Of a DNA stretch of 64,000 nucleotides, positions 7,423 through 64,000 are shown in pieces (the first letter of the stretch is position 1; the number at the start of each line of letters is the position of its first letter). Position numbers and translations under genes: made by a program. This stretch comes from Pseudomonas grandcourensis (lineage in GTDB: Bacteria > Pseudomonadota > Gammaproteobacteria > Pseudomonadales > Pseudomonadaceae): the NCBI RefSeq assembly GCF_039909015.1, contig NZ_CP150919.1, positions 2,580,501-2,644,500 of the forward strand, read 5' to 3'. Below the pieces are notes generated by a model, which saw nothing but the letters and a program-made list of their open reading frames with translations, was not told the DNA's origin and did no database searches.

Positions 7423-8400
7423 TCAGCGACTGCTCAAGTGATTCGAGGCGGCCTGACCGCGCCGCCACGCCGCCGGTGGCGCACCGTACTCGCGACGGAA
7501 GGCGCGGCTGAAAGCGGTATCGGTCTGGTATCCCACTTCTTCGGCGATGCGCGTCAATGAGCTGTTGCTGCTGCGTAACAGGTTGGCGGCGAGCAACATG
7601 CGCCATTGCGTCAGGTACTGCATCGGCGACACCCCCACCAGTTGCTGGAAGCGTTCGGCCAACACCGATCTTGAGGTGCTGGCGGTGCGCGCCAGTTCGT
7701 CCAGTGTCCAGGCGTGGCAGGGTTTTTTGTGCAAGGCGTTGAGGGCGGCGCCTACGATGCGGTCGCGCACTCCGGCCAGCCAGCCGGTGCGGCCTTCGCC
7801 CTGTTCGTTCATGTACAGGCGCAACACTTCGATGAACAGCACTTCGGCAAGTTTGGCCAATACCCCTTCACCGCCAGGGCGGGGCGAGCGGGCTTCGGCG
7901 AGGGCATAGCGCACCGAGGATTCCAGCCAGATACCGGCATCCGAACCGCGCACATTGACCCGCACCACGGCCGGCAAGCCCTTGAGCAACATGCCCGCCA
8001 GGCGCGTATCGCACGCCAGGTAGCCGCACACCAGGCGGGTGAGCGCGCCACCCCCGCCATAGCTCAATTGCCGGGGCCGGCGCGCCAGCACCGCATCCAG
8101 CCGCGCACCCGTGGCCGGGGGCAATCCGGGATGTGAGCACATGCGATGGGCATCGCCCTGGGGGAAAATCACCACGTCGCCCGCACTCAGCAGCAGCGGC
8201 GGGTCATCGCCCAATTCCACGTAGCACTCGCCCTCGGTGATCAGATGAAAGATCACCACCCGTTCCGCATCGGGCTCCAGAAACGGCGCGGCGGTGTCGG
8301 CGCTGGGCGACTGGTAGCACCAGGGCGCGGTGAACCGGGCGTTGATAAAGATCGCGCCGACCAGGTGCACGACGCGCAGGGTCTGTGACAGAGCGTCCAT
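7423..8400 (-). CDS. AraC-family transcriptional regulator with cupin sensor
   Basis: 325 aa. Residues 1-190 are an AraC-type cupin (Cupin_6-like) ligand domain (HLITEGECYVEL, SAGDVVIFPQGDAHRM). Residues 210-315 hold two helix-turn-helix motifs (WTLDELARTASTSRSVLAERF; SLTRIAEEVGYQTDTAFSRAF) with the usual PxxW end. Regulators of this layout usually control an adjacent divergent oxidoreductase or efflux gene; here the divergent genes encode a DUF4242 protein and a methyltransferase. The intergenic region holds GACGATCGG direct repeats that could be its binding sites. Confidence 0.9.
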   Translation of the reverse strand: MDALSQTLRVVHLVGAIFINARFTAPWCYQSPSADTAAPFLEPDAERVVIFHLITEGECYVELGDDPPLLLSAGDVVIFPQGDAHRMCSHPGLPPATGARLDAVLARRPRQLSYGGGGALTRLVCGYLACDTRLAGMLLKGLPAVVRVNVRGSDAGIWLESSVRYALAEARSPRPGGEGVLAKLAEVLFIEVLRLYMNEQGEGRTGWLAGVRDRIVGAALNALHKKPCHAWTLDELARTASTSRSVLAERFQQLVGVSPMQYLTQWRMLLAANLLRSSNSSLTRIAEEVGYQTDTAFSRAFRREYGAPPAAWRRGQAASNHLSSR

Positions 8401-8462
8401 TGGGGTTTCCCCGTGGGAGGTTCCTGATTGTGAGCGCGCCTGCGCGCTACGTGGAATCTCCG

Positions 8463-8520
8463 GACGATCGGGCAGGGTTGGGCGACGATCGGACAGGACG
8501 CCGGCGCCTGTCAGGACGAT
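8463..8520. promoter_or_regulatory. Candidate AraC-type direct-repeat operator
   Basis: GACGATCGGGCAGG at 8463 and GACGATCGGACAGG at 8484 are 21 bp apart, two helical turns; a third partial copy GACGAT lies at 8515, 31 bp further. Spacing on one DNA face and the place between araC-like gene and DUF4242 gene fit an AraC-family site. Confidence 0.4.
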
Positions 8521-8579
8521 AGTTTGTCTACGGGGTCAATACCGGCCCTGCCACCCAGAACAAGAAAAGAGAGGTTGCC

Positions 8580-8849
8580 ATGCCGAAGTTCGTGATTGAG
8601 CGCGAGATCCAGGGCGCCGGAGCATTGTCGGAAAGGGATTTGAAAGCCGCTTCGCTAAAGTCCTGCCAGGCGTTGCGTGAGTTGCCAGAGGTGCAGTGGC
8701 TGCAGAGCTATGTCACCGGTGACAAACTTTACTGCGTGTACATCTCGCCGAACGAGGCGCAGATCCAGGAGCACGCCAGGATCAGTGGTTTTCCCGCCAA
8801 CCGCATTTCCCAGGTCATGAACATCATTGATCCGACGACGGCGGAGTAA
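8580..8849 (+). CDS. DUF4242 domain protein
   Basis: 89 aa, a small ferredoxin-like alpha-beta protein. MPKFVIEREIQGAG, then WLQSYVTGDKLYCVYISPNEAQIQEHARISGFPANRISQV matches the DUF4242 family (a Streptomyces member was described as nickel-binding). Potential ligands are His, Cys and Glu in the second half. GAGAGG precedes the ATG. It is the first gene after the putative AraC operator, followed 45 bp later by a methyltransferase, so the pair is probably one transcription unit under the AraC regulator. The biological role is unknown. Confidence 0.82.
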   Translation: MPKFVIEREIQGAGALSERDLKAASLKSCQALRELPEVQWLQSYVTGDKLYCVYISPNEAQIQEHARISGFPANRISQVMNIIDPTTAE

Positions 8850-8893
8850 CCGCGACCGGCCCCGACTCGTGTTTCAACCCAGAGACCGTCTCC

Positions 8894-9706
8894 ATGAGTA
8901 CACCCATTGATCTGACTGCCTTGAAAAACCGCCAGATGGCCTCCTGGGCCAGCGGTGACTACGCCGTGATCGGCACCACCCTGCAGATCGTCGGCGAGCA
9001 ACTGGCCGAAGCCTGCGACCTGTTGTGCGATGAACGCGTGCTCGATGTTGCCGCCGGCAACGGCAACGCAACCCTCGCCGCTGCCCGCCGTGGCTGCAAG
9101 GTGACGTCCACCGACTATGTCGCCGCCTTGCTCGAACGCGGTGAAGAAAGGGCGCGGGCCGAACGCTTCAACGTCTCCTTCCAGGTCGCCGATGCCGAAG
9201 CCTTGCCCTTTGCCGACGGCAGTTTTGATGCCGTGCTGTCGACCTTCGGCGTGATGTTCACGCCGGACCAGCCCAAAGCCGCCGCGGAACTGGCGCGGGT
9301 TTGTCGCCCGGGCGGGCGGATCGGCCTGGCCAACTGGACCCCGGAAGGATTCGTCGGCCAGATGTTCAAGACCCTGGGCCAGCACCTGCCGCCCCCTCCG
9401 GGTGCCAATCCACCCTCACGCTGGGGCACCGAAGCCTGGTTGCACGAGCATTTCGACGAGCGTGAATTCCTGCTCCAGGTGACGCGCCGCACGTTCAATT
9501 TCCGCTATCGCTCAGCGGCGCATTTCATCGACACCTTCCGCCAGTGGTACGGACCGGTGCACAAGGCCTTCGCCGCGCTGCCCGCGGATGGCGCCAAGGC
9601 ATTGGAGACTGACTTGACCGAGCTGATCAACCGAATAAACCGTGCGGGTGACAAATCGCTGGTGGTGCCGAGTGAATACCTGGAGGTGGTGATTACGCGG
9701 CGTTGA
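8894..9706 (+). CDS. Class I SAM-dependent methyltransferase
   Basis: 270 aa. The SAM-binding motif I is VLDVAAGNGNATLAAA (about residues 48-63), with the acidic end of strand 2 at TSTDYVAALL and motif IV at FDAVLSTFGVMF, followed by RVCRPGGRIGLANW. This is the UbiE/Coq5-like Methyltransf_11 layout used on small molecules; the substrate is not deducible. It sits 44 bp behind the DUF4242 gene. A REP element and a hairpin terminator follow. Confidence 0.88.
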   Translation: MSTPIDLTALKNRQMASWASGDYAVIGTTLQIVGEQLAEACDLLCDERVLDVAAGNGNATLAAARRGCKVTSTDYVAALLERGEERARAERFNVSFQVADAEALPFADGSFDAVLSTFGVMFTPDQPKAAAELARVCRPGGRIGLANWTPEGFVGQMFKTLGQHLPPPPGANPPSRWGTEAWLHEHFDEREFLLQVTRRTFNFRYRSAAHFIDTFRQWYGPVHKAFAALPADGAKALETDLTELINRINRAGDKSLVVPSEYLEVVITRR

Positions 9707-9722
9707 ACGGCCACGCACAACC

Positions 9723-9811
9723 CCTGTGGGAGCGAGCTTGCTCGCGATGGCTGCGGTCCAGTCGCAGCTACTGTGACTGATCGCTTTCGCGAGCAAGCCT
9801 GCTCCTACAAG
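9723..9811. repeat. Paired REP element (REPIN-like)
   Basis: Two convergent REP cores, CTGTGGGAGCGAGCTTGCTCGCGA on the left and its diverged inverse ending GCTCCTACAAGC on the right, enclose about 40 bp of variable sequence. The right arm is degenerate. Confidence 0.85.
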
Positions 9812-9816
9812 CAAAT

Positions 9817-9842
9817 ACGGCGCCCGAAGGTGCCGTTTTTGT
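9817..9842 (+). terminator. Rho-independent terminator
   Basis: ACGGCGCC-CGAA-GGTGCCGT followed by TTTTT; one G-U wobble in an 8-bp stem. It would end transcription from the methyltransferase gene. Confidence 0.55.
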
Positions 9843-9909
9843 TCGTGCCTGTTCCTGAAAACGGGGATCAGAAAATCAGTTCAAGCGACTCGGTCAAAGG
9901 CAGAGGCAG

Positions 9910-10272
9910 TTACTCAGGTGGGCCAAGTTGGTCCAGCGCGCGGTTCACCGCCAGCTCGCCCAGCATGATGACTTGCGCAATGCCGAGCAGGGAATTGCGC
10001 CTGGGGCCTTCCATATGATCCGCCAAATCCATGGTCATGACATTGGCCGAAGCCAGCGATTCGCATGCATGGGTCAGCAGGGTTTCTGCATCGAGCTCTG
10101 GGTTGACAAAGAACATCGTGCCGACTGAGCGCGGAATGTCCATGATGGGGACGTCTGGCTTCAGGTCATAGTCGAGGGGCTGCTCGGCGTCTACGTGAGG
10201 TTTTTTTGAATCGGCGTTTTCGTACGGGGATGGCGGATCGGTCTCCGACGGATTGGGTGTGACCTTGAACAT
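9910..10272 (-). CDS. DUF6124 family protein
   Basis: 120 aa. The N-terminus MFKVTPNPSETDPPSPYE and the core ETLLTHACESLASANVMTMDLADHMEGPRRNSLLGIAQVIMLGELAVNRALD match a Pseudomonas-restricted family (DUF6124, formerly related to DUF3077) usually present in several copies per genome. The first 60 residues are acidic and probably disordered; the last 60 form helices. No signal peptide or catalytic motif. GGAG lies 8 bases ahead of the ATG. It is preceded by a long hairpin-rich leader, described separately. Confidence 0.8.
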   Translation of the reverse strand: MFKVTPNPSETDPPSPYENADSKKPHVDAEQPLDYDLKPDVPIMDIPRSVGTMFFVNPELDAETLLTHACESLASANVMTMDLADHMEGPRRNSLLGIAQVIMLGELAVNRALDQLGPPE

Positions 10273-10319
10273 AGATGGAACTCCGACGCTATTTAAAAGG
10301 AGCCATCACCGCCTCGCTA

Positions 10320-10500
10320 CCAAACGAAGGGTGGCGACCATACGAAGGTTGGTAGACCGGGCATCGGAACCGGCGCCCCCGAAGGAGCCCTGCGCATGGT
10401 CACCATAAAAACACCGCCCAGACATTGGGCAATAAAGGTGACGCTATGCGTCGATGCTACGGGCCTACCAAGCCCGATCACTGATTTTTCAATGACCGGC
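10320..10500 (-). other. Hairpin-rich leader upstream of the DUF6124 gene (possible structured RNA)
   Basis: In 180 bases upstream of the DUF6124 start at least four short perfect or near-perfect stem-loops follow each other: stems at 10375/10388 (UUCG-type tetraloop on the minus strand), 10416-10420/10426-10430 (GCCCA/TGGGC), 10440-10444/10448-10452 (GACGC/GCGTC) and 10460-10464/10472-10476 (CGGGC/GCCCG), plus a CCGG/CCGG pairing at 10357/10370. A 70-codon frame (10317-10529) crosses it, but its product (WSPPFVW end, no domain) looks incidental. This may be a cis-acting leader or separate small RNA. Confidence 0.45.
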
Positions 10501-10529
10501 AAACGATAGAATCCAAGCCCACGACGCAC

Positions 10530-10854
10530 AAGCCGGCGGATTCTGTCGCACCGGTAGGCAACGGCGCAAGTTGGTGTAGCTTTCAGGAAGTAATTTCCTA
10601 AGTTATTTAACAGGCGCGTTTAAATTTCTTTGAGTGGGCTTCCACTGCGCTAAAAATTAACTTTTGGAACTACCGCTGTAGGAAATGGGTTGTTTGTTAT
10701 TGCGAAAATTCCTATTCGTTCATTTGGCTATGCCATTGGATTGCTTTCAGCACGCGCTCCACCGTCTTATTCGTCGTCGCCCAATATTCTCTTTGCTCAG
10801 CACTTCTGCCGAGAGGGAAGGCAACTCAAACCGATGACGATCAGGAAGTGGCAA
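10530..10854. other. Gene-free AT-richer stretch before the T6SS module
   Basis: Clearly lower in GC than the surroundings (for example around 10590-10690). The frame of the next gene extends back to 10690 but lacks a ribosome binding site until 10855. No RNA gene or repeat seen. The base composition agrees with horizontal acquisition of the module that follows. Confidence 0.4.
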
Positions 10855-11352
10855 ATGAATGCACCTGTGCACCCCTTGTATACCAACGAAGTTTCTCCTG
10901 AATTTCTCCGCAGTCTTGACACCCCCCATTTCACTGAAGAACGACTTGCGCAATTTTGCGACGAAGCTCTGGCAGTTGTTCGCCAGGGGCAGGCATACAT
11001 GGAAGCTCATCCCGCTCACGCCATTTACCGAATCGCAACCGAGGGCAGTCAAACCCGCGATGGCGGGGTGATCAAGCAGGGAGTTGCTCCCTTGGAGTTC
11101 ACATTAGAGAGCGGCCAGAAAGTACGTGCGGCACAGAAAGGCGATTACGTCGTGTACGCCGATGGGAGTACGGCACAGATCGTGACGGGCGCGGGACAAG
11201 GAAATAGCGATGTGGCGCTGGTCGGTAGCTGTCTTTGCAATGGCGACGAGATCATCAACACTTTGCAAGGCGGTTTTTTGTTAGTGGGGCGTGAAGGTGT
11301 CGCGATGGCCGAGGATTTTCTGCCCTCCATCCAGCAGGTAGAACATCAATGA
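10855..11352 (+). CDS. T6SS PAAR-effector-associated protein
   Basis: 165 aa, starting at the ATG preceded by AGGAAG. It resembles proteins encoded directly upstream of PAAR-type effectors in Pseudomonas (HAIYRIATEGSQTRDGG, PLEFTLESGQKVRAAQKGDYVVYADGSTAQIVTGAG). The second half looks like a PAAR-like glycine-rich repeat (ALVGSCLCNGDEIINT). No signal peptide or membrane segment. The last 4 bases overlap the PAAR effector gene (ATGA), so production is coupled. A role in loading or protecting the effector is likely but not shown. Confidence 0.65.
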   Translation: MNAPVHPLYTNEVSPEFLRSLDTPHFTEERLAQFCDEALAVVRQGQAYMEAHPAHAIYRIATEGSQTRDGGVIKQGVAPLEFTLESGQKVRAAQKGDYVVYADGSTAQIVTGAGQGNSDVALVGSCLCNGDEIINTLQGGFLLVGREGVAMAEDFLPSIQQVEHQ

Positions 11353-12767
11353 ACGAAGGACATTTCATTGGTCTGCATGATAAGACCACCTGTGGCGGCA
11401 AAGTCCTGGATGGTCATACCAGCGTCATGATGTACGGAATCGCCCATGCCCGCGAAGGTGATCGGGTTACCTGTGGCGAGGACGGCAAGACTTATAAGAT
11501 CGTCGGTGGGATTTCCTACATGGTCAGTCATGGCAAAGCCATAGCGGGCACGCTGGATAGCCACAGCGATTGCCCCTGCAAAGCCCGGCTGATCCCTTCT
11601 GTGGTCACGGCCACCTATCGCAGCGCTAACTCCGCACCCCGAACTGGCAGGAGCGTTGTGCAACCAACTGCTAGTGCTGCAACCGGTCAACCGGCTGCGC
11701 CACGTCAATCTGGTTTCGCCCCTTCGAACCCTCCAGCGCCAGCGATATTCAATCGCGCGGAACCTCAAGAGCCGGGATTCTATGTGGTGCCCAAAAGCAT
11801 GACCCGCGAAGCCTTGGAGGCCACGCTGTTCGCCACGCCCGATGCCGCCGTGATGCGCAAATTTCGGGCACTCAACCCAGCATCAGACAACATTAAAGCC
11901 GGCTCGCTGATCGTGCTGGGCGATCCGAACAACACCTCCTGCACCTATCAGGAAGCACAACTGATGCAGGCCGCGCAGCAGGTCAAGTTGGCACTCGATC
12001 CCCTGACGCCGGAAGAAGCCGAATTCATGTTCCGCCACGCGGCTGAAATCGCCAGTTTTACCGGCGAGACTTCGACCTGGCTCGGCGTCAGCGCGGTGGT
12101 GATGGAAAAACACCTGGCCCGACTGCGCGACACCCTGCAAGCCATGGAACGCCTGCATCAGGACAGCTATCGTCAGCACGGCCATCTCAAATCGCCGCAG
12201 TTTTTCGCCGAACGCCAGCGGCTGCTCGCCCAACTGGATGCCCACCTGCTGAACTCCACTCGCCTGCGTGGCCAGACTACCTTGGGCGATCACCCCAAGT
12301 TGAAGACGGCCCTCGGCATTTCCAGTCGTAGCCTGGTGCACCATTGGGACAAGGCCGGGGCGCCGGGCCAGATACCGGGTTATGCGACTCATGTGAGTGC
12401 GACCAGTCGGGCTGCCAAATACATGCAGAACGGCGGTTATATCGGTATCGGTATTGGTATTGGTGGGGTTTCTTCGCTGTTGGCTATTCAGGAGGTTTGT
12501 GTTGGTGACTCTGGTGCGGCTTGTGAGAGGGTTAAGTTCACTGAGGGTGGCAAGTTCGTGGGCTCGACAGGCTTGGGGTATTTGGGAGGCGAATTGGCAC
12601 ATGTGGCCAGTCCCACTATCTGTGCTGCGCTTGGCGTGACTACAGCTATAGGGGGTGTTGTCTGTGTCGCGGCTGTAGTTGGAATTGGCGCATTGGTGGG
12701 AACGAAAGTTGGTGGTATGGGAGGAGAATTCACCGCTGAAAAAATTTACGAAGCAACGCAGCCATGA
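11349..12767 (+). CDS. PAAR-domain T6SS effector with glycine-zipper C-terminal domain
   Basis: 472 aa, modular. Residues 1-85 are a PAAR domain that caps the VgrG spike; conserved metal-ligand Cys/His residues are visible (TTCGGKVLDGHT, VTCGEDGK, SHGKAIAG). Residues 95-140 are a Pro/Ala linker. Residues 143-195 resemble a LysM-like fold (VVPKSMTREALEATLF...LNPASDNIKAGSLIVLG). Residues 200-310 are helical. From about 358 onward there are two glycine-zipper hydrophobic stretches (GYIGIGIGIGGVSSLL; ALGVTTAIGGVVCVAAVVGIGALVG), which suggest membrane insertion or pore formation. The next gene encodes a membrane protein overlapping by 4 bases, as expected for immunity. No vgrG or hcp lies nearby, so this is an orphan cargo locus. 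Confidence 0.85.
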   Translation: MNEGHFIGLHDKTTCGGKVLDGHTSVMMYGIAHAREGDRVTCGEDGKTYKIVGGISYMVSHGKAIAGTLDSHSDCPCKARLIPSVVTATYRSANSAPRTGRSVVQPTASAATGQPAAPRQSGFAPSNPPAPAIFNRAEPQEPGFYVVPKSMTREALEATLFATPDAAVMRKFRALNPASDNIKAGSLIVLGDPNNTSCTYQEAQLMQAAQQVKLALDPLTPEEAEFMFRHAAEIASFTGETSTWLGVSAVVMEKHLARLRDTLQAMERLHQDSYRQHGHLKSPQFFAERQRLLAQLDAHLLNSTRLRGQTTLGDHPKLKTALGISSRSLVHHWDKAGAPGQIPGYATHVSATSRAAKYMQNGGYIGIGIGIGGVSSLLAIQEVCVGDSGAACERVKFTEGGKFVGSTGLGYLGGELAHVASPTICAALGVTTAIGGVVCVAAVVGIGALVGTKVGGMGGEFTAEKIYEATQP

Positions 12768-13153
12768 TCAGTATCGACACTTGGTCTCCCTTGGCTGCGA
12801 TCATTGTCGTTGGTGGCCCAATTCTGCTGTGTTACGTGAGTTTCTTTTACAGTCTGTACCTGAGCCGTCGTCACCTGGATCGCTTTCTGCAAGCCTTGAG
12901 CGGTAGTCGCCAAATCGTGATTAGCGCCGCAGGACTGGCGCAGAGCGGATGGTTAAATCGGCTTTTGTTAGTCGCAAAGATCACGTTCATGGTGATGTGG
13001 CCCGGTCCCGGACTTCGTTCGGGAGATCTTGATCCCGATGATGTCCGCAACTTTCCTGTAGGCCTGAAACGCTTGCTAAAGGTCAAGGCTATCCTGACGT
13101 GTGTCATTTTGATTTGGGGAGCGTTTGCGTTCGCGCTGGTGAAATTCAAGTAA
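12764..13153 (+). CDS. Probable inner-membrane immunity protein
   Basis: 129 aa with a membrane helix at residues 10-32 (LAAIIVVGGPILLCYVSFFYSLYL), a possible second near 62-77 and a third at 107-126 (ILTCVILIWGAFAFALV). It starts inside the effector gene (ATGA). Membrane immunity proteins neutralise pore-forming T6SS toxins from the inner membrane; the effector's glycine-zipper tail agrees with that. The N-terminal segment is repeated in a broken copy about 650 bp downstream. No homology beyond this is recognised. Confidence 0.7.
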   Translation: MISIDTWSPLAAIIVVGGPILLCYVSFFYSLYLSRRHLDRFLQALSGSRQIVISAAGLAQSGWLNRLLLVAKITFMVMWPGPGLRSGDLDPDDVRNFPVGLKRLLKVKAILTCVILIWGAFAFALVKFK

Positions 13154-51770: not shown

Positions 51771-53447
51771 CAGGCTGTGTGAAAACGCCAGTGTTTGTCT
51801 AACCTTCTGATCGTCTAGATCGTATTGGGGGCGATCATGAAGCGATTCATTGAAGGTGAGGCTCGGACGCAAGTCACGTTGCTGCCTGAGTGCTTGGACG
51901 ATTACGTAGCCGAAGAAAATCCAGTGCGAGTGGTCGACGTTTTCGTCGATGAACTCGACCTGGGTGCACTTGGGTTTGAAGGTGTTGATCCTGCTGCAAC
52001 GGGGCGTCCGGCCTACCATCCAGCGATCTTGCTGAAGATCTATATCTACGGCTACCTGAATCGGATTCAGTCCAGCCGCCGGCTGGAACGGGAGGCCGAG
52101 CGCAATGTCGAGTTGATGTGGCTGACGGGACGTTTGGCTCCGGACTTCAAAACCATTGCCGACTTTCGCAAAAACAACGGCAAAGCCATTCGCAGCGTCT
52201 GCCGGCAATTCGTAGTGCTTTGTCGCAACCTCAATCTCTTCTCCCAATCAATCATCGCCATCGATGGCAGCAAATTCAAAGCCGTCAATAATCGCGACCG
52301 TAACTTCACCCAGGGCAAAGTGAAGGCACGCATGCAGCAGATCGAACAGAGCATTGACCGTTATCTAACGGCGATGGATTCGGCGGATCGGGCAACACCC
52401 GAAGTAGCCGAGGCCAAGGCCGAGCGGTTGAAAGAAAAGATAGAAACGCTGAAAAAGCAGATGCAGAAACTCAAGGACATCGAGGCGCAGCTCCACGACA
52501 GTCCAGACCAGCAAATCTCTCTTACCGATCCAGATGCACGCTCAATGGCCACGAGCGGCCGAGGCACCGGAACGGTTGGTTACAACGTCCAAACAGCTGT
52601 CGACGACAAACACCATCTGATCATTGCCCATGAGGTGACCAATGTTGGTAATGATCGTGGGCAACTGAGCAATATGGCGAACCAGGCGCGTGAAGAAATC
52701 GAGGCTGAATCGCTAACGGTGGTGGCCGACCGAGGCTATTACAAAGGTCTGGAAATCCTTGCTTGCGAGCAAGCCGGCATCACTACCTTCGTACCGAAAC
52801 CCCTGACATCGGGCAGCAAAGCCGAAGGCCGATTTGGCAAGCAGGACTTCATCTACGTTGCTGCATCGGACGAGTATCGATGCCCTGCGGGACAGTTACT
52901 GACCCGGCGGTATTCGTCGGTGGAAGACGGCATGTTATTGCATTGTTACTACTTCTCGGGCTGCCAGTCCTGCGCAATGCAAAAGCAATGCACCACGGGT
53001 AAAGAGCGCCGGGTAAAGCGCTGGGAACATGAAGCCGTAGTCGATGCAATGCAGGCTCGGCTGGATCATGATCCAACGATGATGAGGCGTCGCCGCCAGA
53101 CCGTTGAACATCCTTTTGGAACGCTCAAATACTGGATGGGAAGTACCCACTTCCTGACCAAAACCCTGCCGAGGGTAAGCACCGAGATGAGCCTTCATGT
53201 GCTCGCCTACAACCTCAAGCGAATGATGAGCATCTTCGGCATCGCAGGATTGCTTGAAGCGATCAGGGCGTGAGTCTAGCCGCTTGCTCGCCCGTTAGTA
53301 GCGATTTGGGCCGCTGGCGCGACCCAAACCGCATTTACGAACACCTATGTAGCTGACTAAGGTAATTCGCGCTTCCGTCTGCTGTTTCGCAGGCAACGCA
53401 CGCAACTCTCCGTTATCGACGTACTCAGTGCGTTTTCACACAGCCTG
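51771..53447 (+). mobile_element. IS1182-family insertion sequence, complete
   Basis: 1677 bp. Terminal inverted repeats are perfect over 18 bp: CAGGCTGTGTGAAAACGC at 51771 and its complement ending at 53447. Both ends are flanked by GGTC (51767-51770 and 53448-53451), a 4-bp target duplication. One intact transposase gene fills it; about 170 bp of non-coding sequence follows the gene inside the element. Intact ends and frame suggest a recent and possibly active insertion. Confidence 0.88.
51837..53273 (+). CDS. IS1182-family transposase
   Basis: 478 aa. The N-terminal domain (RFIEGEARTQVTLLPECLDDYV...NPVRVVDVFVDELDL) matches the DUF772-type head, with a coiled-coil insert at about 185-225 (ERLKEKIETLKKQMQKLKDIEAQLHD). 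Catalytic Asp143 (IIAIDGSKFKA), second Asp in VVADRGYYKG, and Glu in RRRRQTVEHPFGTLK form the DDE set. A Cys cluster (CPAG, GCQSCAMQKQC) is usual for the family. The start has GGGG at a suitable distance. Confidence 0.95.
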   Translation: MKRFIEGEARTQVTLLPECLDDYVAEENPVRVVDVFVDELDLGALGFEGVDPAATGRPAYHPAILLKIYIYGYLNRIQSSRRLEREAERNVELMWLTGRLAPDFKTIADFRKNNGKAIRSVCRQFVVLCRNLNLFSQSIIAIDGSKFKAVNNRDRNFTQGKVKARMQQIEQSIDRYLTAMDSADRATPEVAEAKAERLKEKIETLKKQMQKLKDIEAQLHDSPDQQISLTDPDARSMATSGRGTGTVGYNVQTAVDDKHHLIIAHEVTNVGNDRGQLSNMANQAREEIEAESLTVVADRGYYKGLEILACEQAGITTFVPKPLTSGSKAEGRFGKQDFIYVAASDEYRCPAGQLLTRRYSSVEDGMLLHCYYFSGCQSCAMQKQCTTGKERRVKRWEHEAVVDAMQARLDHDPTMMRRRRQTVEHPFGTLKYWMGSTHFLTKTLPRVSTEMSLHVLAYNLKRMMSIFGIAGLLEAIRA

Positions 53448-56282: not shown

Positions 56283-56403
56283 TCCCACACTGGTTTGTGG
56301 ATTAGATGGCGTTGTATGCACGTATAAAGTGCAAATGCTGCGTCTTCCGCCATGTTATGGCCAGGCTTAGTCTCGGGACAACTATTTGCGGAGTCGCGAG
56401 AAA

Positions 56404-57804
56404 ATGAAGTCCATATCGATTCGGGGCGCCTTGGCCAGCCTGTCGTTATCCATGCTGCTGTCGTCCCTGGGCACCAGCATTGCCAACGTGGGTTTACCGA
56501 CACTGGCCGAGGCGTTTTCAGCGTCGTTCCAGGCCGTGCAGTGGGTGGTGCTCGCCTATTTGCTGAGCATCACGGCGCTGATCGTCAGCGTCGGCCGGCT
56601 CGGCGACCTCATGGGGCGGCGGCGATTGCTGCTGATCGGCATTGCGCTGTTCACCGTTGCCTCGCTCCTGTGTGCCCTGGCGCCGAATCTGTGGCTGCTG
56701 GTTGCCGCCCGTGCCTTACAGGGCGTCGGCGCGGCGACCATGATGGCACTGACCATGGCGCTGGTGAGCGGGGCGGTGCCCAAGGAAAAAATGGGCAGCG
56801 CGATGGGCGTGCTCGGCACGATGTCGGCGATTGGCACTTCGCTGGGGCCGACGCTTGGCGGCGTGTTGATCGCCCAGGTGGGCTGGCAGGGGATTTTTCT
56901 GCTGAACCTACCCTTGGGTGTTTTGGCGATCGGACTGGCCTGGCGTTTTTTGCCGGTGGATCGCCACGAGATGACCTCCACTCGACCCGATTTCGACGCG
57001 CTTGGCACCCTGGTCTTGGTCCTGACCCTGTTGGCTTACGCACTGGCAATGACCCTTGGACGCGGCAGCTTCGGCCCGCTCAATACGGCGCTGCTGCTGG
57101 TCGCGATAATCGGCTTGATGGTGTTCGTATTCGTCGAGCAAACCGCCGCGTCGCCGCTGGTCAAACTGGCGATGTTGCGCAATCCGCTGCTCAGCGCGGG
57201 GTTCGCCATGAGTAGCCTGGTGACCACGGTGGTCATGGCCACCCTGGTGGTCGGGCCGTTCTATCTGTCGGCTGCGCTGGGTTTGAGCGCGGTGAGTGTC
57301 GGGCTGGTGATGTCGGCCGGACCGCTGGTCGCGGCATTTGCCGGCGTACCCGCCGGGCGGCTGGTCGACCGATGGGGTGCACAACGTTCGAGCACGGTCG
57401 GGCTGATTGCCATGTTGACCGGCACTTGCATCCTTCCCGTCGTGCCGATGAGCGTCGGCGTACTCGGCTACCTCGTTCCGCTGGTGGTCCTCACAGCCGG
57501 ATATGCGCTGTTCCAGGCGGCGAACAATACCGCCGTGATGGCAGATATTGAGTCGCAGCAGCGTGGTGTGGTTTCCGGATTGCTCGGCCTGTCTCGCAAC
57601 CTGGGGCTGATCACCGGCGCCTCGGTCATGGGCGCTGTGTTCGCCTTCGGCACGGCCAGTGACGATATTTTGCAGGCGCAACCTGAGGCCATCGCGCAGG
57701 GGATGCGATTGACGTTTGCGGTTGCTGCGGGGCTGATTCTCCTGGCTCTGGTGCTGGGAACCGTCAGCAAAATCGTTTCACGTCGCTTGATTGCGCCGTG
57801 CTGA
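56404..57804 (+). CDS. MFS drug/metabolite exporter (DHA2-type)
   Basis: 466 aa with about 14 membrane helices. MFS motif [17 protein letters not shown] after helix 2, motif C-like [12 protein letters not shown] on helix 5, typical of proton-driven exporters of the EmrB/QacA group. It starts at an ATG 12 bases behind GGAG. It probably answers to the divergent LysR. It ends 157 bp before the fusion gene, with a separate promoter in between, so it is not part of that operon. Confidence 0.9.
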
Positions 57805-57869: not shown

Positions 57870-57898
57870 TTGAACGAGTGTTCAGTCTGGACTATGTT
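57870..57898 (+). promoter_or_regulatory. Promoter with overlapping TetR-type operator for the aminotransferase-ABC operon
   Basis: TTGAAC (57870-57875) and TATGTT (57893-57898) are 17 bp apart, a good sigma-70 pair 64 bp ahead of the ATG. The -35 is the left arm of TTGAAC-GAGT-GTTCAG, almost identical to the perfect repeat TTGAAC-GTCT-GTTCAA in front of the TetR gene at 63918. A repressor bound here would block the -35. Confidence 0.6.
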
Positions 57899-57961: not shown

Positions 57962-59965
57962 ATGCGGTTTTCACCCTTTGTAGAGCGGATCAGTGGCCAA
58001 GGCGTTGCCGCCTGGGATATTCACTACGCGGCCAGCGCGGCACAGCGCAAAGGCGAGGACGTGATCATCCTCAGCGTCGGCGACCCGGATTTCCCCACCC
58101 CCGATTTCATTACCGATGCCGCCATCCACGCCCTGCGCGAAGGGGACACCCACTACACCGAGATCGCCGGCCGCCAGGCTTTGCGCGAGGCCATTGCCGG
58201 TCGTTACAGTCAACTGATCGACCGTGAACTGCAGGCGTCCAACGTCATTCTCACGGCCGGTGCGCAGAACGCCTTGTTCGCCACCTCGATGTGCCTGCTC
58301 GGTGCCGGCGACGAGGTGATTTCCTTCGATCCGATGTACGTCACCTACGAAGCGACGCTCAAGGCGTCCGGCGCCACGCTGGTGCGGGTGCCCTGCGCGG
58401 CGGACTCGGGTTTCCGCCTCGATGCCGCCGTGTTGGCCAAGGCCATCACCCCGCGCACCCGGGCGATTTTCTTCTCCAACCCGAACAACCCCACCGGCGT
58501 GGTGCTGGGTCGCGAAGAGCTGCAAGCCATCGCCGACCTCGCCATCGCCCATGACCTGTGGGTGGTGGTGGACGAGGTCTACGAGAGCCTCGCCTACGAG
58601 CGTGAACACCTGAGCCTGGCGGCGTTGCCGGGCATGGCCGAGCGCTGCGTGGTGATCGGCAGCCTGTCCAAATCCCATGCCATGACCGGTTGGCGCATCG
58701 GCTGGGTCGTGGCCAATGAAGCCCTGGTCAATCATGTCGAAACCCTGGTGCTGAGCATGCTGTACGGCTTGCCCGGGTTTGTCATGGAAGCGGCGCTCAA
58801 GGCCGTGCAGTCCCATGACGAAGTCACCCACGGCATGCGCGAGATCTATCGTCGGCGCCGCGATCTGGTGGTGTCCGGCCTGGCGGATTGCCCGGGCATC
58901 AGCGTGCTCAACCCCGATGCCGGCATGTTCGTGCTGGTGGACGTGCGCGGCACCGGCCTGACCTCGCTGGAGTTCGCCTGGCGCCTGCTGCGCGAAGCCG
59001 GTGTCTCGGTGCTGGATGCGGCGGCATTCGGTGAACCGGCCCAGGGGTTTGTACGACTGTCGTTCACCCTGAGCGACGAGCGTCTGGCCCAGGCCTGCCA
59101 GCGCATTCGCGGTTTTGTCCAGGTACTCAATGGTGAAGCGCCGAGGCCGGTGATCGGCACGGTGACCAGCACCGCGGCCGTCGAACCGGTTGCGGCCAAG
59201 ACCATGATCGAGGTCGATGGCCTGCACAAACGCTTCGGCAATATCGAAGTGCTCAAGGGCGTATCCCTGACCGCCCGCGAGGGCGAAGTGATCTCCCTGA
59301 TCGGTGCCAGCGGCTCGGGCAAAAGTACCTTGCTGCGCTGCATCAACATGCTCGAAGTGCCGGACCAGGGACGCATCCTGGTCGATGGCGAAAGCATTCA
59401 CCTCAACCAGAATCGTCCCGGCGCACCGCTGGTGTCGGACGCCAAACAGCTTGTGCGCATCCGTTCCAGCCTGGGCATGGTGTTCCAGAACTTCAACCTC
59501 TGGCCCCATCGCACGGTGCTGGAAAACCTCATCGAAGCGCCGACCCAGGTCCTGCGTGAAAGCCGTGCGGAGGCCACTGAACGGGCCGAAGCCCTGCTCG
59601 AACGTGTAGGCCTTGCGGCCAAGCGCAACGAGTACCCGGCGTTTCTCTCCGGGGGACAGCAACAACGGGTGGCCATCGCCCGGGCCCTGGCCATGCGGCC
59701 CAAGGTCATGCTGTTCGATGAACCCACCTCGGCACTCGACCCGGAACTGGTCGGGGAAGTGCTGCGGGTGATCCGCTCCCTCGCCGAAGAAGGCCGGACC
59801 ATGATCCTGGTGACTCATGAAATGGCCTTCGCACGCGATGTCTCTTCCAAAGTCGCCTTCCTGCATCAAGGGCTGATCGAGGAAACCGGTTCGCCGGACG
59901 AAGTGTTCGTACACCCACGCAGCGAGCGTTGCCGACAATTCGTCAACGCTCATCAGACTCGCTAA
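57962..59965 (+). CDS. Aminotransferase-ABC ATPase fusion protein
   Basis: 667 aa in one uninterrupted frame. Residues 1-390 are a complete class I/II PLP aminotransferase: [21 protein letters not shown], and the PLP lysine Lys237 in [15 protein letters not shown], with the substrate Arg in GFVRLSF. Residues 391-414 are a Pro/Ala/Thr-rich linker ([15 protein letters not shown]). Residues 415-667 are a polar-amino-acid-type ABC ATPase: Walker A 448-456 (GASGSGKST), signature LSGGQQQR 562-569, Walker B Asp586-Glu587, switch His in [10 protein letters not shown]. An internal ATG at the join lacks a ribosome site. The genes behind supply binding protein and two permeases, so the ATPase half has its partners. 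The substrate is unknown. Confidence 0.92.
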
Positions 59966-59992
59966 CTCATCATAAAAAGACGGGAAAACAAC

Positions 59993-60775
59993 ATGGGAAA
60001 TCGACGTTTTGCAAACTGGTTGACCGGTGCGGCCTGCGTAATGCTGGCCGGCATGAGTGCCGCCCAAGCGCAACCGATCCGCTTCGCGGTGGCAGCGGAA
60101 CCCTATCCGCCGTACACCGAAAAGCAGGCCAATGGTGAGTGGAAGGGCTTCGAAGTCGACCTGATCCACAAACTGTGCAGCGAAATGAAAGCCGATTGCG
60201 AGATCAAGGAAGTGGCGTGGGACGGCATTATTCCGTCGCTGTTGGCGAAGAAGATCGACGTGATCTTTTCCTCGATGTCGGTGACCGAAGAGCGGGAAAA
60301 ACAGATCGCCTTCAGCAAGGCTTACTACGACTCGGCGATTGCCGTCGTCGGCCCGAAAGAGGCGTCGGTGAAGAAGTACCCGGATGACCTCAAGGGCAAG
60401 ATCATCGGCGTGCAGAACTCGACCGTGAGCGCCAGCTACCTGAAGACCTACTACGAAAAAATCGCCGACGTTAAGTACTACGACACCCAGGACTCGGCCA
60501 ACGCTGACCTGATTGCCGGGCGCATCGACCTGATGATGGCCGACGGCACCGCCATGGCCGCGTTCATCAAGACCCCGGACGCCAAGGACCTGGCCTACCT
60601 CGGCACCGTGCCTTATGACCCGATCTTCGGCAAAGGCGTGGGGGCCGGTATGCGCAAGGACGACACCGAACTCAAGGCCAAACTGGACAAGGCCATCCAG
60701 GAATTGCTGGCGAGCAAAGACTACGACGAACTGTCCCAGAGCTACTTCGGCACCAGCGTGAAGCCTGCGTTCTGA
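59993..60775 (+). CDS. ABC transporter substrate-binding protein (polar amino acid family)
   Basis: 260 aa, family 3 solute-binding protein. Signal peptide ending AQAQ (about residue 27). The ligand fold shows FAVAAEPYPPYTEKQANGEWKGFEVDLIHKLCSEMKADCEI, the hinge WDGIIPSLLAKKIDVIFSSMSVTEEREKQIAFSKAYYDSA with the Arg and Asp expected to hold an amino-acid carboxylate and amino group, and LKGKIIGVQNSTVSASYL. It starts 27 bp after the fusion gene. It captures the substrate in the periplasm for the two permeases downstream. Confidence 0.93.
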   Translation: MGNRRFANWLTGAACVMLAGMSAAQAQPIRFAVAAEPYPPYTEKQANGEWKGFEVDLIHKLCSEMKADCEIKEVAWDGIIPSLLAKKIDVIFSSMSVTEEREKQIAFSKAYYDSAIAVVGPKEASVKKYPDDLKGKIIGVQNSTVSASYLKTYYEKIADVKYYDTQDSANADLIAGRIDLMMADGTAMAAFIKTPDAKDLAYLGTVPYDPIFGKGVGAGMRKDDTELKAKLDKAIQELLASKDYDELSQSYFGTSVKPAF

Positions 60776-60815
60776 CTGAAAGGGCGAAGCGCAAGTCCTG
60801 AGGAAAAGCAGATCC

Positions 60816-60909
60816 CTGTGGGAGCGAGCTTGCTCGCGATAGCGGTGGTTCAGTCAGCATTGATATTGACTGGCATGGCCTCATCGCGAGCAAGCTCGCT
60901 CCCACAGGA
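60816..60909. repeat. REP pair inside the transport operon
   Basis: Full cores at both sides (CTGTGGGAGCGAGCTTGCTCGCGATAGC ... GCGAGCAAGCTCGCTCCCACAGG) between the binding-protein gene and the first permease gene. Such hairpins often stabilise the upstream mRNA, favouring the binding protein over the permeases. Confidence 0.9.
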
Positions 60910-60947
60910 TCCGGCGGTGTGTTCACGACCGCATACTGGAGACTGAA

Positions 60948-61661
60948 ATGCCGGCAATGTTCGATCTGATCAATTTCACCGAGCAGGGATGGGGCAGTGC
61001 GCTGTTGAAGGGGCTCTGGATGACCCTGCAGATTTCCGCCGGGGCCTTTGTGCTCGGGCTGGCCATCGGGTTGGTGGTGGCGTGCCTCAAGCTGGGCGCG
61101 CCGAAGCCGATTGCAGCGCTGATGCGCGGCTACACCACCTTGTTCCGGGCGGTGCCGGAATTGCTGCTGATTCTGTTGCTGTACTACGTCGGCTCCATGC
61201 TCCTCAATTCGCTGATGACCGAACTCGGCTACGGTGTAGTCAATGTCAGCGGACCGCTGGCGGCCATCGTGGTGCTGGGGCTGGTGCAGGGTGCCTACGC
61301 CTCGGAGATTTTCCGCGCGGCGATCCAGGCGATTCCCTTCGGCCAGATCGAAGCGGCCAAGGCGTTCGGCCTGAGCGGTTTCGGGCTGTTCCGCCGGGTC
61401 ACGCTGCCGATCATGGCGCCTTACGCCATGGCCGGGATGGCCAACCTTTGGATCAACCTGATCAAGGACAGTGCGCTGATCAGCGTGGTCGGCACCAACG
61501 AGTTGCTGTACACCGCCAAGCAAGGCGCGGGATCGACGCGCCACTATCTGTTGTTCTACCTCACGGCTGCCGCGTTGTATTACGCAGTGACCTTGGCGTC
61601 GAACTATCTTTCGGGACGGTTGGAGCGACGCATTCGTCGCTGGATGCCTCTTGTTGACTGA
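60948..61661 (+). CDS. Amino acid ABC transporter permease
   Basis: 237 aa, five to six membrane helices, HisM/HisQ type. The EAA loop is EAAKAFGLSGFGLFRRVTLPIMAPYA, which contacts the ATPase. N-terminal GSALLKGLWMTLQISAGAFVLGLAIGL is the family start. With the second permease it forms the heterodimeric channel; the ATPase comes as the C-terminal part of the fusion protein. Start ATG preceded by GGAG. Confidence 0.92.
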   Translation: MPAMFDLINFTEQGWGSALLKGLWMTLQISAGAFVLGLAIGLVVACLKLGAPKPIAALMRGYTTLFRAVPELLLILLLYYVGSMLLNSLMTELGYGVVNVSGPLAAIVVLGLVQGAYASEIFRAAIQAIPFGQIEAAKAFGLSGFGLFRRVTLPIMAPYAMAGMANLWINLIKDSALISVVGTNELLYTAKQGAGSTRHYLLFYLTAAALYYAVTLASNYLSGRLERRIRRWMPLVD

Positions 61662-61679
61662 ACCGGCAGAGTGAATGAA

Positions 61680-62378
61680 ATGATTCCAGCGTGGATAGTT
61701 GAATACGCGGCACTGTTGGGCCGGGGGCTGCAAACCACCCTCGTTATTCTGTTGGTATCGAGTGTGTTCGGTTATCTGCTGGCGGTACTGGTGGCGCTGG
61801 CGCGGATCTCGAAAAACAAGGTGATTGCCAAGGTCAGCCTGTTCTACACCAGCGTCACGCGCGGTACGCCGTTGCTGATCCAGATCTACATCTACTACTA
61901 CGGATTGGGCAGCCTGTTTGCCCAGTTCCCGCTGATTCGTGGCAGTTTCCTCTGGCCGTATCTGCGCGACGGCTACTGGTACATCGTGTTCGCCCTGGTG
62001 GTGTCGATGGGGGCCTATGTTGGCGAAGTGATTCGTGGTGGCCTGCTGGCGGTGCCCAAGGGTGAGATGGAAGCCGCGTCAGCGTTTGGCATGACCGCGC
62101 GCCAGTCGTTGTTGCGGGTGCGCTTGCCCCGAGCCTTGCGCCTGCTGTTGCCGACGCTTGCGGGGGAAACCGTGATGCTGCTCAAGTCCACGGCGCTGGC
62201 CTCGACCATTGCCGTGATCGATCTGCTCGGCGCCGCCAACGTGGTCCGCGCGCAGACCCTGCAGGTGTACGAACCCTTGTTGCTGGTGGCCGGGGTGTAT
62301 GTCTGCCTGACGTTCCTGATCGAGGCGTTGTTTGCCTTTGCCGAACGGCGCGGGACGCCCGTGCGCAGGTCGGCCTGA
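61680..62378 (+). CDS. Amino acid ABC transporter permease
   Basis: 232 aa from the ATG with AGAG 8 bases upstream (GTG at 61671 would add three residues). HisM-type: LGRGLQTTLVILLVSSVFGYLLAVLVALARIS, SVTRGTPLLIQIYIYYYGLG, and EAA loop EAASAFGMTARQSLLRVRLPRALRLLLPTLAGETVMLLKSTALAS. Its stop shares bases with the ATG of the EamA exporter gene (TGATG), so import and export genes are translationally coupled. Confidence 0.92.
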   Translation: MIPAWIVEYAALLGRGLQTTLVILLVSSVFGYLLAVLVALARISKNKVIAKVSLFYTSVTRGTPLLIQIYIYYYGLGSLFAQFPLIRGSFLWPYLRDGYWYIVFALVVSMGAYVGEVIRGGLLAVPKGEMEAASAFGMTARQSLLRVRLPRALRLLLPTLAGETVMLLKSTALASTIAVIDLLGAANVVRAQTLQVYEPLLLVAGVYVCLTFLIEALFAFAERRGTPVRRSA

Positions 62379-63382
62379 TGAGTTCGCCACGGGTTGACCG
62401 CTCGCTGCAGGGCATTGGCCTGTGCACGTTGGGTTACGCATTCCTGTCGTTGCAGGATGCGGTCATCAAGTGGCTGGTGGCTGACTATTCGGTGGTCACC
62501 ATTCTGTTCTGGCGCGCCGCTGTGGTGGTCGTGGCAGTGTTGCTGGCGGGGCGCCTGCGCCTGATCCAGCGGGCCTGGCGCTCGCCGAGCCGGCGCCTGC
62601 TGGTGGTGCGCGGTTTGCTGTCGATTGTCGCCTGGGTGCTGTACTACACGGCGGCCCGCGACCTGACCCTGGCCGAGATGACCACCCTGTATTTTTCTGC
62701 GCCGATCATGGTCACGGTGCTGGCGGCGGTGATTCTCAAGGAGCGCGCCAGCGGCTGGCAGTGGTTCAGCCTGATCATCGGTTTTGTCGGGGTGGTCATC
62801 GCCTGTCGCCCCGACAACATGACCGATCCGTTGCCGATCGTCCTGACCCTGTTGGCGGCGATGTGCTGGGCGTTCACCTACATCCAGCTGCGCCAGGTGG
62901 ATGAGCAGACCTCCGTGCTGGAGCAGATGCTGATCACCAACGTGGTGTTCGTGATTTGCATGGCGGTCGCCCTGCCGTGGACCCACACGCCATCACCGAC
63001 GCCCGCCTGGCTGGGCATGCTCGGCGCCGGCCTGGTGGGCGGCATCGGCCAGTTCCTGTTGTTCGCCAGTTTCCGCCGCGCCACCGCGACCTTGCTCGCG
63101 CCGTTCGAATACACCGGGCTGATCTGGGCGTTTGCGCTGTCGAGCCTGGTCTGGGGCACGCTGATGGACATGTCACTGATGGTCGGCGCCGGGCTGATCG
63201 CGGTCAGCGGCACCCTGGCGATGATCTTCGGCCGACACCCGTCACAAGACGTCGTCGGTGCTGAATGCTCCGTGACGCAGCCCCTTTATCCAGCAGCGGC
63301 AGATATGCAGTCCGTTGGCGGCGCTGAAGGTCTCGGGGTTCAGGCACCACTCGAGCCAGAGACCGTCGAGCATCGCCGATAA
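62378..63382 (+). CDS. EamA/DMT-superfamily transporter
   Basis: 334 aa, ten membrane helices in two EamA repeats (QGIGLCTLGYAFLSLQDAVIKWLV... and VLTLLAAMCWAFTYIQLRQVDEQ...), ending about residue 288 at LAMIFGRHP. These proteins usually export amino acids or metabolites. The last about 45 residues (SQDVVGAECSVTQ...ETVEHRR) are hydrophilic and lie antisense to the end of the convergent TetR gene. Translation is coupled to the permease. Export of the transamination product is a reasonable guess only. Confidence 0.88.
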   Translation: MSSPRVDRSLQGIGLCTLGYAFLSLQDAVIKWLVADYSVVTILFWRAAVVVVAVLLAGRLRLIQRAWRSPSRRLLVVRGLLSIVAWVLYYTAARDLTLAEMTTLYFSAPIMVTVLAAVILKERASGWQWFSLIIGFVGVVIACRPDNMTDPLPIVLTLLAAMCWAFTYIQLRQVDEQTSVLEQMLITNVVFVICMAVALPWTHTPSPTPAWLGMLGAGLVGGIGQFLLFASFRRATATLLAPFEYTGLIWAFALSSLVWGTLMDMSLMVGAGLIAVSGTLAMIFGRHPSQDVVGAECSVTQPLYPAAADMQSVGGAEGLGVQAPLEPETVEHRR

Positions 63383-63877
63383 GCCGATGGCGGCCAGGCG
63401 CGTGTCGTGAATCACGAAGCCTTCGCTGGCGGCCAGCCCGTCGAGCAACTGGCGGATCAGATCGAGGTAGGCGCGGTAGCTTTTTTCGTGGGACTGGCTG
63501 ACGTGTTCGGAGTGACGGATCAGGCTCCAGAACACTACCCACACGCCGAGCAGTTTCGGGTCCATGACCCTGGGCGAGAACGAGCCTTCGAGGAAGGCAT
63601 CGATCTTTTGCGCGGGTGTCTGGGCCTGTTCGATTTCCTGGAGCAGGGCGGTGGTCAGTTCGCTCGCGAGCCGCTGGTAGGTGTCGGCGATCAGTGCCTC
63701 GATGCTGCCGAAGTGATGGTTGAGCAACCCCACGGACACCCCGGCCTCGGTGGCAATGCGTCGCACGGAAATCCCGGCGTGACCGTCGCGGCCCAGGCAG
63801 CGCAGGGTGGCGGCCACCAGCATTTCGCGACGGTCCTCGGGTTCGGTGCGGCGGTTTTTCGGGGCATCGGTTGTCAC
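63242..63877 (-). CDS. TetR-family repressor (BetI-like)
   Basis: 211 aa. HTH at residues 15-62 (RREMLVAATLRCLGRDGHAGISVRRIATEAGVSVGLLNHHFGSIEALIADTY), which is BetI-like, with a C-terminal helical TetR_C_6-type domain (LLGVWVVFWSLIRHSEHVSQSHEKSYRAYLDLIRQLL). It is convergent with the EamA gene, overlapping it by 141 bases. A perfect inverted repeat 41 bp upstream is probably its operator, and the same motif occurs at the promoter of the fusion operon, so it is the best candidate for that operon's regulator. Confidence 0.9.
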   Translation of the reverse strand: MTTDAPKNRRTEPEDRREMLVAATLRCLGRDGHAGISVRRIATEAGVSVGLLNHHFGSIEALIADTYQRLASELTTALLQEIEQAQTPAQKIDAFLEGSFSPRVMDPKLLGVWVVFWSLIRHSEHVSQSHEKSYRAYLDLIRQLLDGLAASEGFVIHDTRLAAIGLSAMLDGLWLEWCLNPETFSAANGLHICRCWIKGLRHGAFSTDDVL

Positions 63878-63917: not shown

Positions 63918-63933
63918 TTGAACGTCTGTTCAA
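63918..63933. promoter_or_regulatory. TetR operator candidate
   Basis: TTGAAC-GTCT-GTTCAA, a perfect inverted repeat with 4-bp centre, in the 117-bp divergent gap between the TetR gene and the gene starting at 63995. It matches TTGAAC-GAGT-GTTCAG at 57870. Likely autoregulation and control of the divergent gene. Confidence 0.6.
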
Positions 63934-63994: not shown

Positions 63995-64000
63995 ATGCCG
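63995..64000 (+). CDS. Start of a gene cut by the window edge
   Basis: ATGCCG preceded by GGGAGGG at a good distance (about 8 bases). Only two codons are visible. It is divergent from the TetR gene and downstream of the shared operator, so it is probably co-regulated. Confidence 0.55.

Follow-up and report, generated by a model that had tools for sequence, protein, structure and literature searches.

AruH is reportedly the arginine:pyruvate transaminase of the arginine transaminase pathway of Pseudomonas. Fold-type I transaminases are dimers, and importers of the PAAT class use two ATPase subunits. Additional domains on ABC machinery are known from the peptidase-containing ABC transporters, in which a C39 peptidase is fused to an exporter, and from importer ATPases with regulatory domains (MetN), where the MetN-type domains are found at the C-terminus. 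Here, we describe a locus of Pseudomonas grandcourensis in which an aminotransferase (AT) and the ATPase of an amino acid ABC importer are encoded as a single chain. The analysis covers a 64,000-nucleotide stretch (NZ_CP150919.1, positions 2,580,501 to 2,644,500; the window) and related loci and genomes, numbered L and G, respectively. The protein is probably an AruH-like transaminase linked flexibly to the ATPase of a basic amino acid importer, which would make the system an arginine(-like) importer that carries its first catabolic enzyme. The fused gene is organized as follows.

57962..59965, + strand: fused AT-ABC ATPase gene, 667 residues in one open frame
58058..59107, + strand: PF00155 aminotransferase domain, residues 33-382
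58670-58672, + strand: codon of K237, within the AT domain
59132..59203, + strand: flexible Pro/Ala/Thr linker, about residues 391-414, placed by alignment, model confidence and substitution rates
59204..59962, + strand: polar-amino-acid-type ABC ATPase domain, residues 415-667

An earlier note on this DNA had claimed a complete aminotransferase and a complete amino-acid ABC ATPase in one frame, and the 667-residue frame with its PF00155 and PF00005 domains confirms it; K237 and the Walker A motif at 448-456 lie where the note had put them, and its Pro/Ala/Thr linker of 24 residues corresponds to about residues 391-414. In the Pfam scan, the AT half matches PF00155 with 240 bits and PF00005 covers residues 431-590. 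The ATPase motifs comprise Walker A (448-456), LSGGQ (562-566), the Walker B Asp/Glu pair D586/E587, and H619. The AT half is, as AruH, a complete class I pyridoxal phosphate (PLP) aminotransferase, with the PF00155 domain and with K237 and R365 in 90/90 distinct intact copies. An AlphaFold2 model built on a 50-row alignment has a mean predicted local distance difference test (pLDDT) of 89 and a predicted template modeling score (pTM) of 0.60, with pLDDT below 50 at residues 395-411. As modelled, the protein is two well-folded domains on a flexible tether, their mutual placement being undefined.

Judged by its relatives, the fusion is one real bifunctional protein, no artefact, and old. The genus sample consisted of 398 Pseudomonas genomes, and the sets used below (62 with an intact fusion, 5 with an eroded AT, 9 with a solo AT) are those among the matches listed. 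The full-length fusion is intact and free of stops in at least 62/398 of these genomes. Neither a stop with a separate start nor a missed frameshift near 59130-59210, the signs against a fusion named in the earlier note, appeared among the intact copies. A sequencing or assembly error joining two genes is refuted by the stop-free frames and further opposed by the in-frame erosion series described below, and we give this explanation practically no credence. The frame that ends at 59965 is open from a TTG at 57791 (724 residues) and also from the ATG at 57962 (667 residues). The ATG is the likely translation start, because a Shine-Dalgarno-like 4-mer is present at -16 to -4 of the AT start in 82/88 distinct leaders of fused loci versus 5/92 at -18 to -4 of the internal codon 415. 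The latter frequency is not above the background of 7.5% over all codons, which agrees with the absence of an internal ribosome site claimed before, and on this basis we rejected the idea that the ATPase is also made on its own from a second start within the frame. As a separate start, codon 415 would moreover be neither ATG nor GTG in 4/92 copies. The linker, measured from FVQVLN to codon 415, varies from 27 to 44 residues across the 92 copies.

Relatives in which one half is lost are informative on the same point. Five genomes of the genus sample (L128-L132) have the ATPase part at 89-95% identity and no full AT. The frames of L128 and L129 are 536 and 524 residues long, with the AT short by 154 and 166 residues through six in-frame gaps in L128 and four in L129, two of them common to both; R365 is missing in both, and K237 is altered in L128. 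The ATPase is still 98% identical in L128/L129, and comparison of the two gives a ratio of nonsynonymous to synonymous substitution (omega) of 0.48 for the AT and 0.046 for the ATPase. In L130 and L132 about eleven initial AT residues are left before the ATPase, in L131 about four, and these remnants sit behind a nearly unchanged leader. In-frame erosion with the AT start retained is most simply read as showing that the ATPase can be translated only from that start, and the series is good evidence for a single polypeptide. Five relatives thus keep the importer but no full AT, and transport seems not to require the enzyme. Conversely, nine genomes of the genus sample encode a solo AT that belongs to the fused clade and shares 68-78% identity with it; an importer operon of this type was not found in the stretches read around them. 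Two of these lineages, L122 and L123+L124, are nested within the fused clade (98/89 and 100/98 on the enclosing nodes) and so have lost the ATPase, and the other six rows diverge close to the base of that part of the tree which holds the P. fluorescens group. The solo ATs L119, L121, L125 and L126 lie near an OprD-type porin gene, and L119 and L126 retain the TetR gene.

A search for the same two-domain architecture, as suggested in the earlier note, found it in Pseudomonas, including many soil members of the genus, in two further Pseudomonadaceae genera and in Psychromonas. In the family sample, the full-length fusion occurs in 52/398 genomes spanning the three genera; two further rows (G820, G894) are partial matches in 692-residue frames, seven are solo ATs (G1045, G1006, G1002, G1062, G980, G1055, G1048) and one is of the eroded type (G1026). 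The class sample gave a match at 1e-150 in 1/369, the window's genome alone, and the phylum sample the fusion in 4/299, every one Pseudomonadaceae. Outside this family the fusion was met once, in Psychromonas sp. B3M02 (about 60% identity). Public annotations already name the pair, e.g. “polar amino acid transport system ATP-binding protein/arginine:pyruvate transaminase” among the matches listed.

Both halves are under selection, as far as substitution patterns tell. Twelve AT residues are invariant in the 90 distinct intact copies (G100, Q102, Y126, N173, N176, D204, Y207, S234, S236, K237, R245 and R365), and from the aspartate aminotransferase family we presume that they include PLP- and substrate-binding positions. 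The ATPase motif residues tested are likewise invariant in 90/90, the exceptions overall being A101 (89), N175 (88) and A449 (89). Median omega is 0.099 for the AT, 0.043 for the ATPase and 0.32 for the linker (396 non-independent pairs, restricted to those with a synonymous divergence of the AT of 0.05-0.6). The eroded L128 and L129 were left out of the residue count and of the AT tree.

The tree, reduced from 116 to 89 rows by removal of near-identical fused rows, places the fused ATs next to ATs from another gene arrangement. Their sister clade consists of 11 unfused ATs (support 95/82) from operons of the order ABC-SBP-Q-M-AT, i.e. ATPase, substrate-binding protein, the two permeases and a separate AT. 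The fused-plus-solo clade has a support of 94/84 with Psychromonas and 99/98 for the P. fluorescens-group part. An AruI-like gene lies near the split operon in 11/11 cases (L021, L022, L023, L025, L027, L028, L046, L133, L134, L135, L137); in the one split locus tested, L021, it scores 768 bits against a cut-off of 500 as 5-guanidino-2-oxopentanoate decarboxylase. The window's genome carries such an unfused system (L137, at about 5.80 Mb, adjoining an AruI-like gene) and also a canonical AruI-AruH-ALDH locus (L138, in the order ECH-ACAD-ACDL-AruI-AruH-ALDH), in which AruH is taken as AruH proper from its position beside AruI and ALDH. The AT half is 53% identical to this AruH and does not group with it; AruH branches outside both the fused and the split-operon AT clades. 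The AruI-like proteins encoded next to split operons form a subfamily that shares only 47-49% identity with the L138 type. Since the fused order AT-ABC-SBP-Q-M is a cyclic permutation of ABC-SBP-Q-M-AT, tandem duplication of a split operon followed by loss would give rise to it.

A link to arginine comes from the co-occurrence of the fusion with AruI, counted here as the L138 type at 1e-150 or 1e-190, without the subfamily beside the split operons. At 1e-190, it is present in 62/62 intact-fusion genomes (G359 as a partial match, residues 70-442), 5/5 eroded and 0/9 solo-AT genomes. In a genus sample of 298 genomes, 86 have AruI; 50 of these are fusion genomes, a number that follows from all 62 being AruI-positive, which leaves 36/248 without an intact fusion (Fisher 1e-33, phylogeny ignored). 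In 14/62 genomes, AruI is encoded on the same strand as the fusion and no more than 2 kb upstream of it (G301, G107, G156, G100, G262, G307, G053, G141, G079, G070, G334, G044, G328, G159). L284 and L285 show the arrangement AruI-ALDH-[AT-ABC]-SBP-Q-M-EamA, and the three AruI genes tested beside a fusion score 766-768 bits against the cut-off of 500.

Canonical AruH (at least 86% identical to that of L138, searched at 1e-150) is found in 25/62 intact, 5/5 eroded and 0/9 solo-AT genomes. Among the 37/62 intact-fusion genomes without it, seven hold a 72-75% paralogue only and 30 have neither, although at least five of the 30 (G048, G059, G261, G283, G339) encode elsewhere an AT that shares 57-60% identity with the fused domain. 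For G307 and G365, a search at 1e-100 gave no AruH-family match other than the fused protein. Of the 37, 13 have AruI no more than 2 kb from the fusion and 24 have it elsewhere, and all ten loci read from the latter (L274-L283) have the order ECH-ACAD-ACDL-AruI with no AruH or ALDH. In L275 and L278 (about 7630-12815), genes resembling a peptide-type ABC transporter, as judged by eye from the translated frames, stand between AruI and a quinone oxidoreductase-like gene and occupy the place that AruH and ALDH have in other strains. Erosion of the AT is confined to AruH-holding genomes (Fisher 0.015, a weak result from few events). In many genomes of the P. fluorescens group, the fusion seems to have come to serve in place of AruH.

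The fused gene heads an import operon, and a domain scan found the binding protein, two permeases, EamA and TetR after it, as the earlier note had described. The neighboring features are listed below.

57870..57885, no strand: operator-like palindrome TTGAAC-N4-GTTCAG, a putative binding site of TetR some 90 bp ahead of the fusion start
59993..60775, + strand: periplasmic binding protein, PF00497, lysine/arginine/ornithine type
60815..60908, no strand: REP-like element with a perfect 26-nt inverted repeat, inside the operon in the gap between binding protein and first permease
60948..61661, + strand: HisQ/ArtQ-type permease, PF00528
61671..62378, + strand: HisM/ArtM-type permease, PF00528
62378..63382, + strand: EamA-family transporter, accessory
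63242..63877, - strand: TetR regulator with BetI-type C-terminal domain
63918..63933, no strand: second copy of the palindrome, TTGAACGTCTGTTCAA, between TetR and the AstE/AspA gene
63995..64000, + strand: start of an AstE/AspA-type hydrolase gene, 338 residues, running past the window (L136:8495-9511)

With complete nucleotide-binding domain motifs, two PF00528 permeases and a PF00497 protein in one operon, the system has the make-up of a PAAT-type importer. The ATPase half is nearest to HisP among the matches listed in a comparison with PDB sequences; its score of 348.3 bits is below the cut-off of 466 of the HisP equivalog NF007908, so it belongs to the PAAT family and is not HisP itself. 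The binding protein has as nearest solved structures the lysine/arginine/ornithine (LAO)-binding protein, followed by cationic-, histidine-, nopaline-, arginine- and octopine-binding proteins. In an alignment with LAO, one arginine and one aspartate are conserved, and another LAO aspartate aligns with an alanine near a glutamate. We assume that in LAO the former pair holds the alpha-carboxylate and alpha-amino group and that the other aspartate contacts the side chain. The predicted site would suit a basic alpha-amino acid, the identity of which it does not fix.

Flanks were available for 35 fused Pseudomonas loci (L009-L020, L136, L211-L230, L284, L285; the Psychromonas locus L024 is not among them). 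The AstE/AspA gene, divergent from TetR and represented in the window by just its first six bases, is present in 35/35, TetR in 34/35 (not L019) and EamA in 25/35. The conserved unit therefore comprises the fusion, importer, TetR and AstE/AspA, with EamA optional; EamA was rejected as a core part, and the earlier suggestion that it exports a product is weakened. In the ten loci without it, there is no match in L010, L014-L018, L224, L229 and L230 and a fragment in L227; L014-L018, L229 and L230 belong to the g280/g283 branch of the AT tree or to those genera. L024 has EamA and TetR and no AstE/AspA match. EamA and TetR share 141 bp in a tail-to-tail overlap, and the matches in relatives (e.g. 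L009, L020, L211) overlap in a similar way. Upstream, an MFS gene (56386-57804) is not a stable neighbor, as AruI or other genes take its place in relatives. Farther away, the window holds a transposase-like gene (51825-53273), presumably of IS1182 type.

The 6.76-Mb genome has three copies of the palindrome TTGAAC-N4-GTTCAR, two of them in this locus. A form of it is found before the fusion in 87/88 distinct leaders, the exception being Psychromonas with a near match, and the second copy between TetR and AstE/AspA in 26/35 fused loci with flanks. The fusion operon and the AstE/AspA hydrolase gene are probably both regulated by the adjacent TetR, which would bind the palindrome that they have in common. 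The upstream copy is retained in 5/5 eroded loci (L128-L132) and in L019 (P. reinekei, AT intact), the loci in which the neighboring TetR was not found.

The reading we prefer, an AruH-like transaminase on the ATPase of a basic amino acid importer, makes arginine or a close analogue the most likely substrate. Since importers of this class have two ATPases and transaminases are dimeric, two fused chains could supply both. Two fused subunits would power one importer, the transaminase halves would pair as the usual dimer beneath the membrane, and the imported amino acid would be transaminated there to its 2-keto acid, to be decarboxylated by the separately encoded AruI, 2-ketoarginine decarboxylase. 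The earlier note proposed that uptake and transamination are coupled, and gene context, namely the AruI linkage, the split operons and the AruH-less genomes, supports such coupling for a basic amino acid.

Several observations weigh against this reading. The genome counts are not phylogenetically independent. The AT is below every NCBIfam cut-off among the models shown, and the binding protein scores 236.6 against the cut-off of 256.35 of TIGR01096 (lysine/arginine/ornithine). In the window's own genome, AruI is a neighbor of AruH and the split copy has an AruI-like gene next to it, with none beside the fusion. AruH is also kept in 25/62 fusion genomes and in both genomes checked outside the genus (G787, G869), so the fusion may have another substrate there. 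The nine solo-AT genomes lack both AruH (searched at 1e-150) and L138-type AruI (searched at 1e-190, a threshold that would miss the split-operon subfamily). The loss of either half in several lineages implies that the tether is not essential. Finally, we know of no step for an AstE/AspA hydrolase in the arginine transaminase pathway, and its presence may point to an N-acylated substrate.

This last point leads to a substrate related to arginine, such as lysine, ornithine, an N-acylated basic amino acid, an opine or a guanidino compound, where the hydrolase would deacylate and the AT transaminate the product, an account we find possible if rather doubtful. It draws on the constant presence of AstE/AspA (35/35 loci), the second palindrome in the window and 26/35 loci, an AstE/AspA gene that follows the AT of L025, a split operon of Burkholderia, the opine-binding proteins that figure among the solved structures nearest to the binding protein, the AruH kept in 25/62 genomes, and GntC, which acts on hydroxyarginine, as the closest NCBIfam model of the AT (NF041364). 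AruH is described as acting on lysine too (PMC12930750). The tight association with AruI and the lack of AruH in 37/62 genomes speak for arginine instead. A different doubt concerns the tether. The two genes may have been joined for convenience through loss of a stop codon, both halves working and the tether securing equal expression with no handover of substrate; this is plausible, at somewhat below an even chance, and can hold together with the preferred reading of the substrate. The linker evolves fast and varies in length, it is disordered in the model, whose pTM of 0.60 gives no fixed domain arrangement, each half was lost alone in several lineages, and the cyclic permutation of gene order is what tandem duplication would produce. 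Against this, the joined state persists in three genera and also in Psychromonas, and 62 intact copies versus 14 with one half lost among the matches listed suggest a benefit of staying joined.

At the other end stands a transport metabolon in which paired importer ATPases carry a transaminase dimer at the cytoplasmic mouth and the tethered enzyme has replaced soluble AruH in part of the P. fluorescens group. We put this forward tentatively and consider it unlikely on present evidence. The variable, fast-evolving linker and the repeated separation of the halves argue against an absolute need for the tether. If true, incoming arginine would be converted before mixing with the cell pool, and catabolism of external arginine would be kept apart from biosynthetic arginine. 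The AT half might also act as a sensor or brake that regulates the ATPase by binding substrate or product (trans-inhibition). Its attachment to the ATPase would suit such a function, but the key catalytic residues are kept in 90/90 distinct copies, the fusion co-occurs with AruI, and MetN-type domains are C-terminal, which makes a regulatory role improbable.

In the literature searched, with most subscription journals outside its scope, no account of an importer ATPase joined to a metabolic enzyme came to light, and four passages of a paper on frequent fusions (PMC4921024) contain no AT-ABC pair. The AruH work of Yang and Lu (2007) is cited in PMC6222131, PMC11113362 and PMC7268258, the last of which concerns arginine transamination in rhizobia. 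Coupling between uptake and catabolism is directly testable in this system, because natural controls are at hand: the same importer with an intact, eroded or deleted enzyme, and a related unfused enzyme and importer in the same genome.

The locus thus shares parts with several described systems and differs from each. GntC hydroxyarginine cyclodehydratase was rejected as the family of the AT (316.3 bits against a cut-off of 415). With AruH, the AT half shares membership of the class I PLP aminotransferases, 53% identity and a genomic association with AruI that takes the form of proximity (within 2 kb) in 14/62 genomes and of co-occurrence in 62/62, but not of adjacency in the window's own genome; AruH is, however, a separate protein in an enzyme operon, whereas the fused AT forms its own clade and is joined to an ABC ATPase. 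The split AT and PAAT operons (L137 of the same genome, L021, L025, L027) have the same five components and a sister AT clade, but their AT is a separate, unfused gene at the end of the operon. The HisP/ArtP-type importers (PDB 1b0u, 4yms, 2olj) resemble the complete ATPase half, which is nearest to HisP; no transaminase is named in the 60 matches listed, and the AT and ABC parts match different entries. The peptidase-containing transporters, whose C39 domain was not found in the Pfam scan of the fused protein, similarly join an enzyme that acts on the cargo to an ABC machine. There, the machine is an exporter with the enzyme on the membrane-spanning half-transporter, whereas here a metabolic enzyme is carried by the ATPase of an importer.

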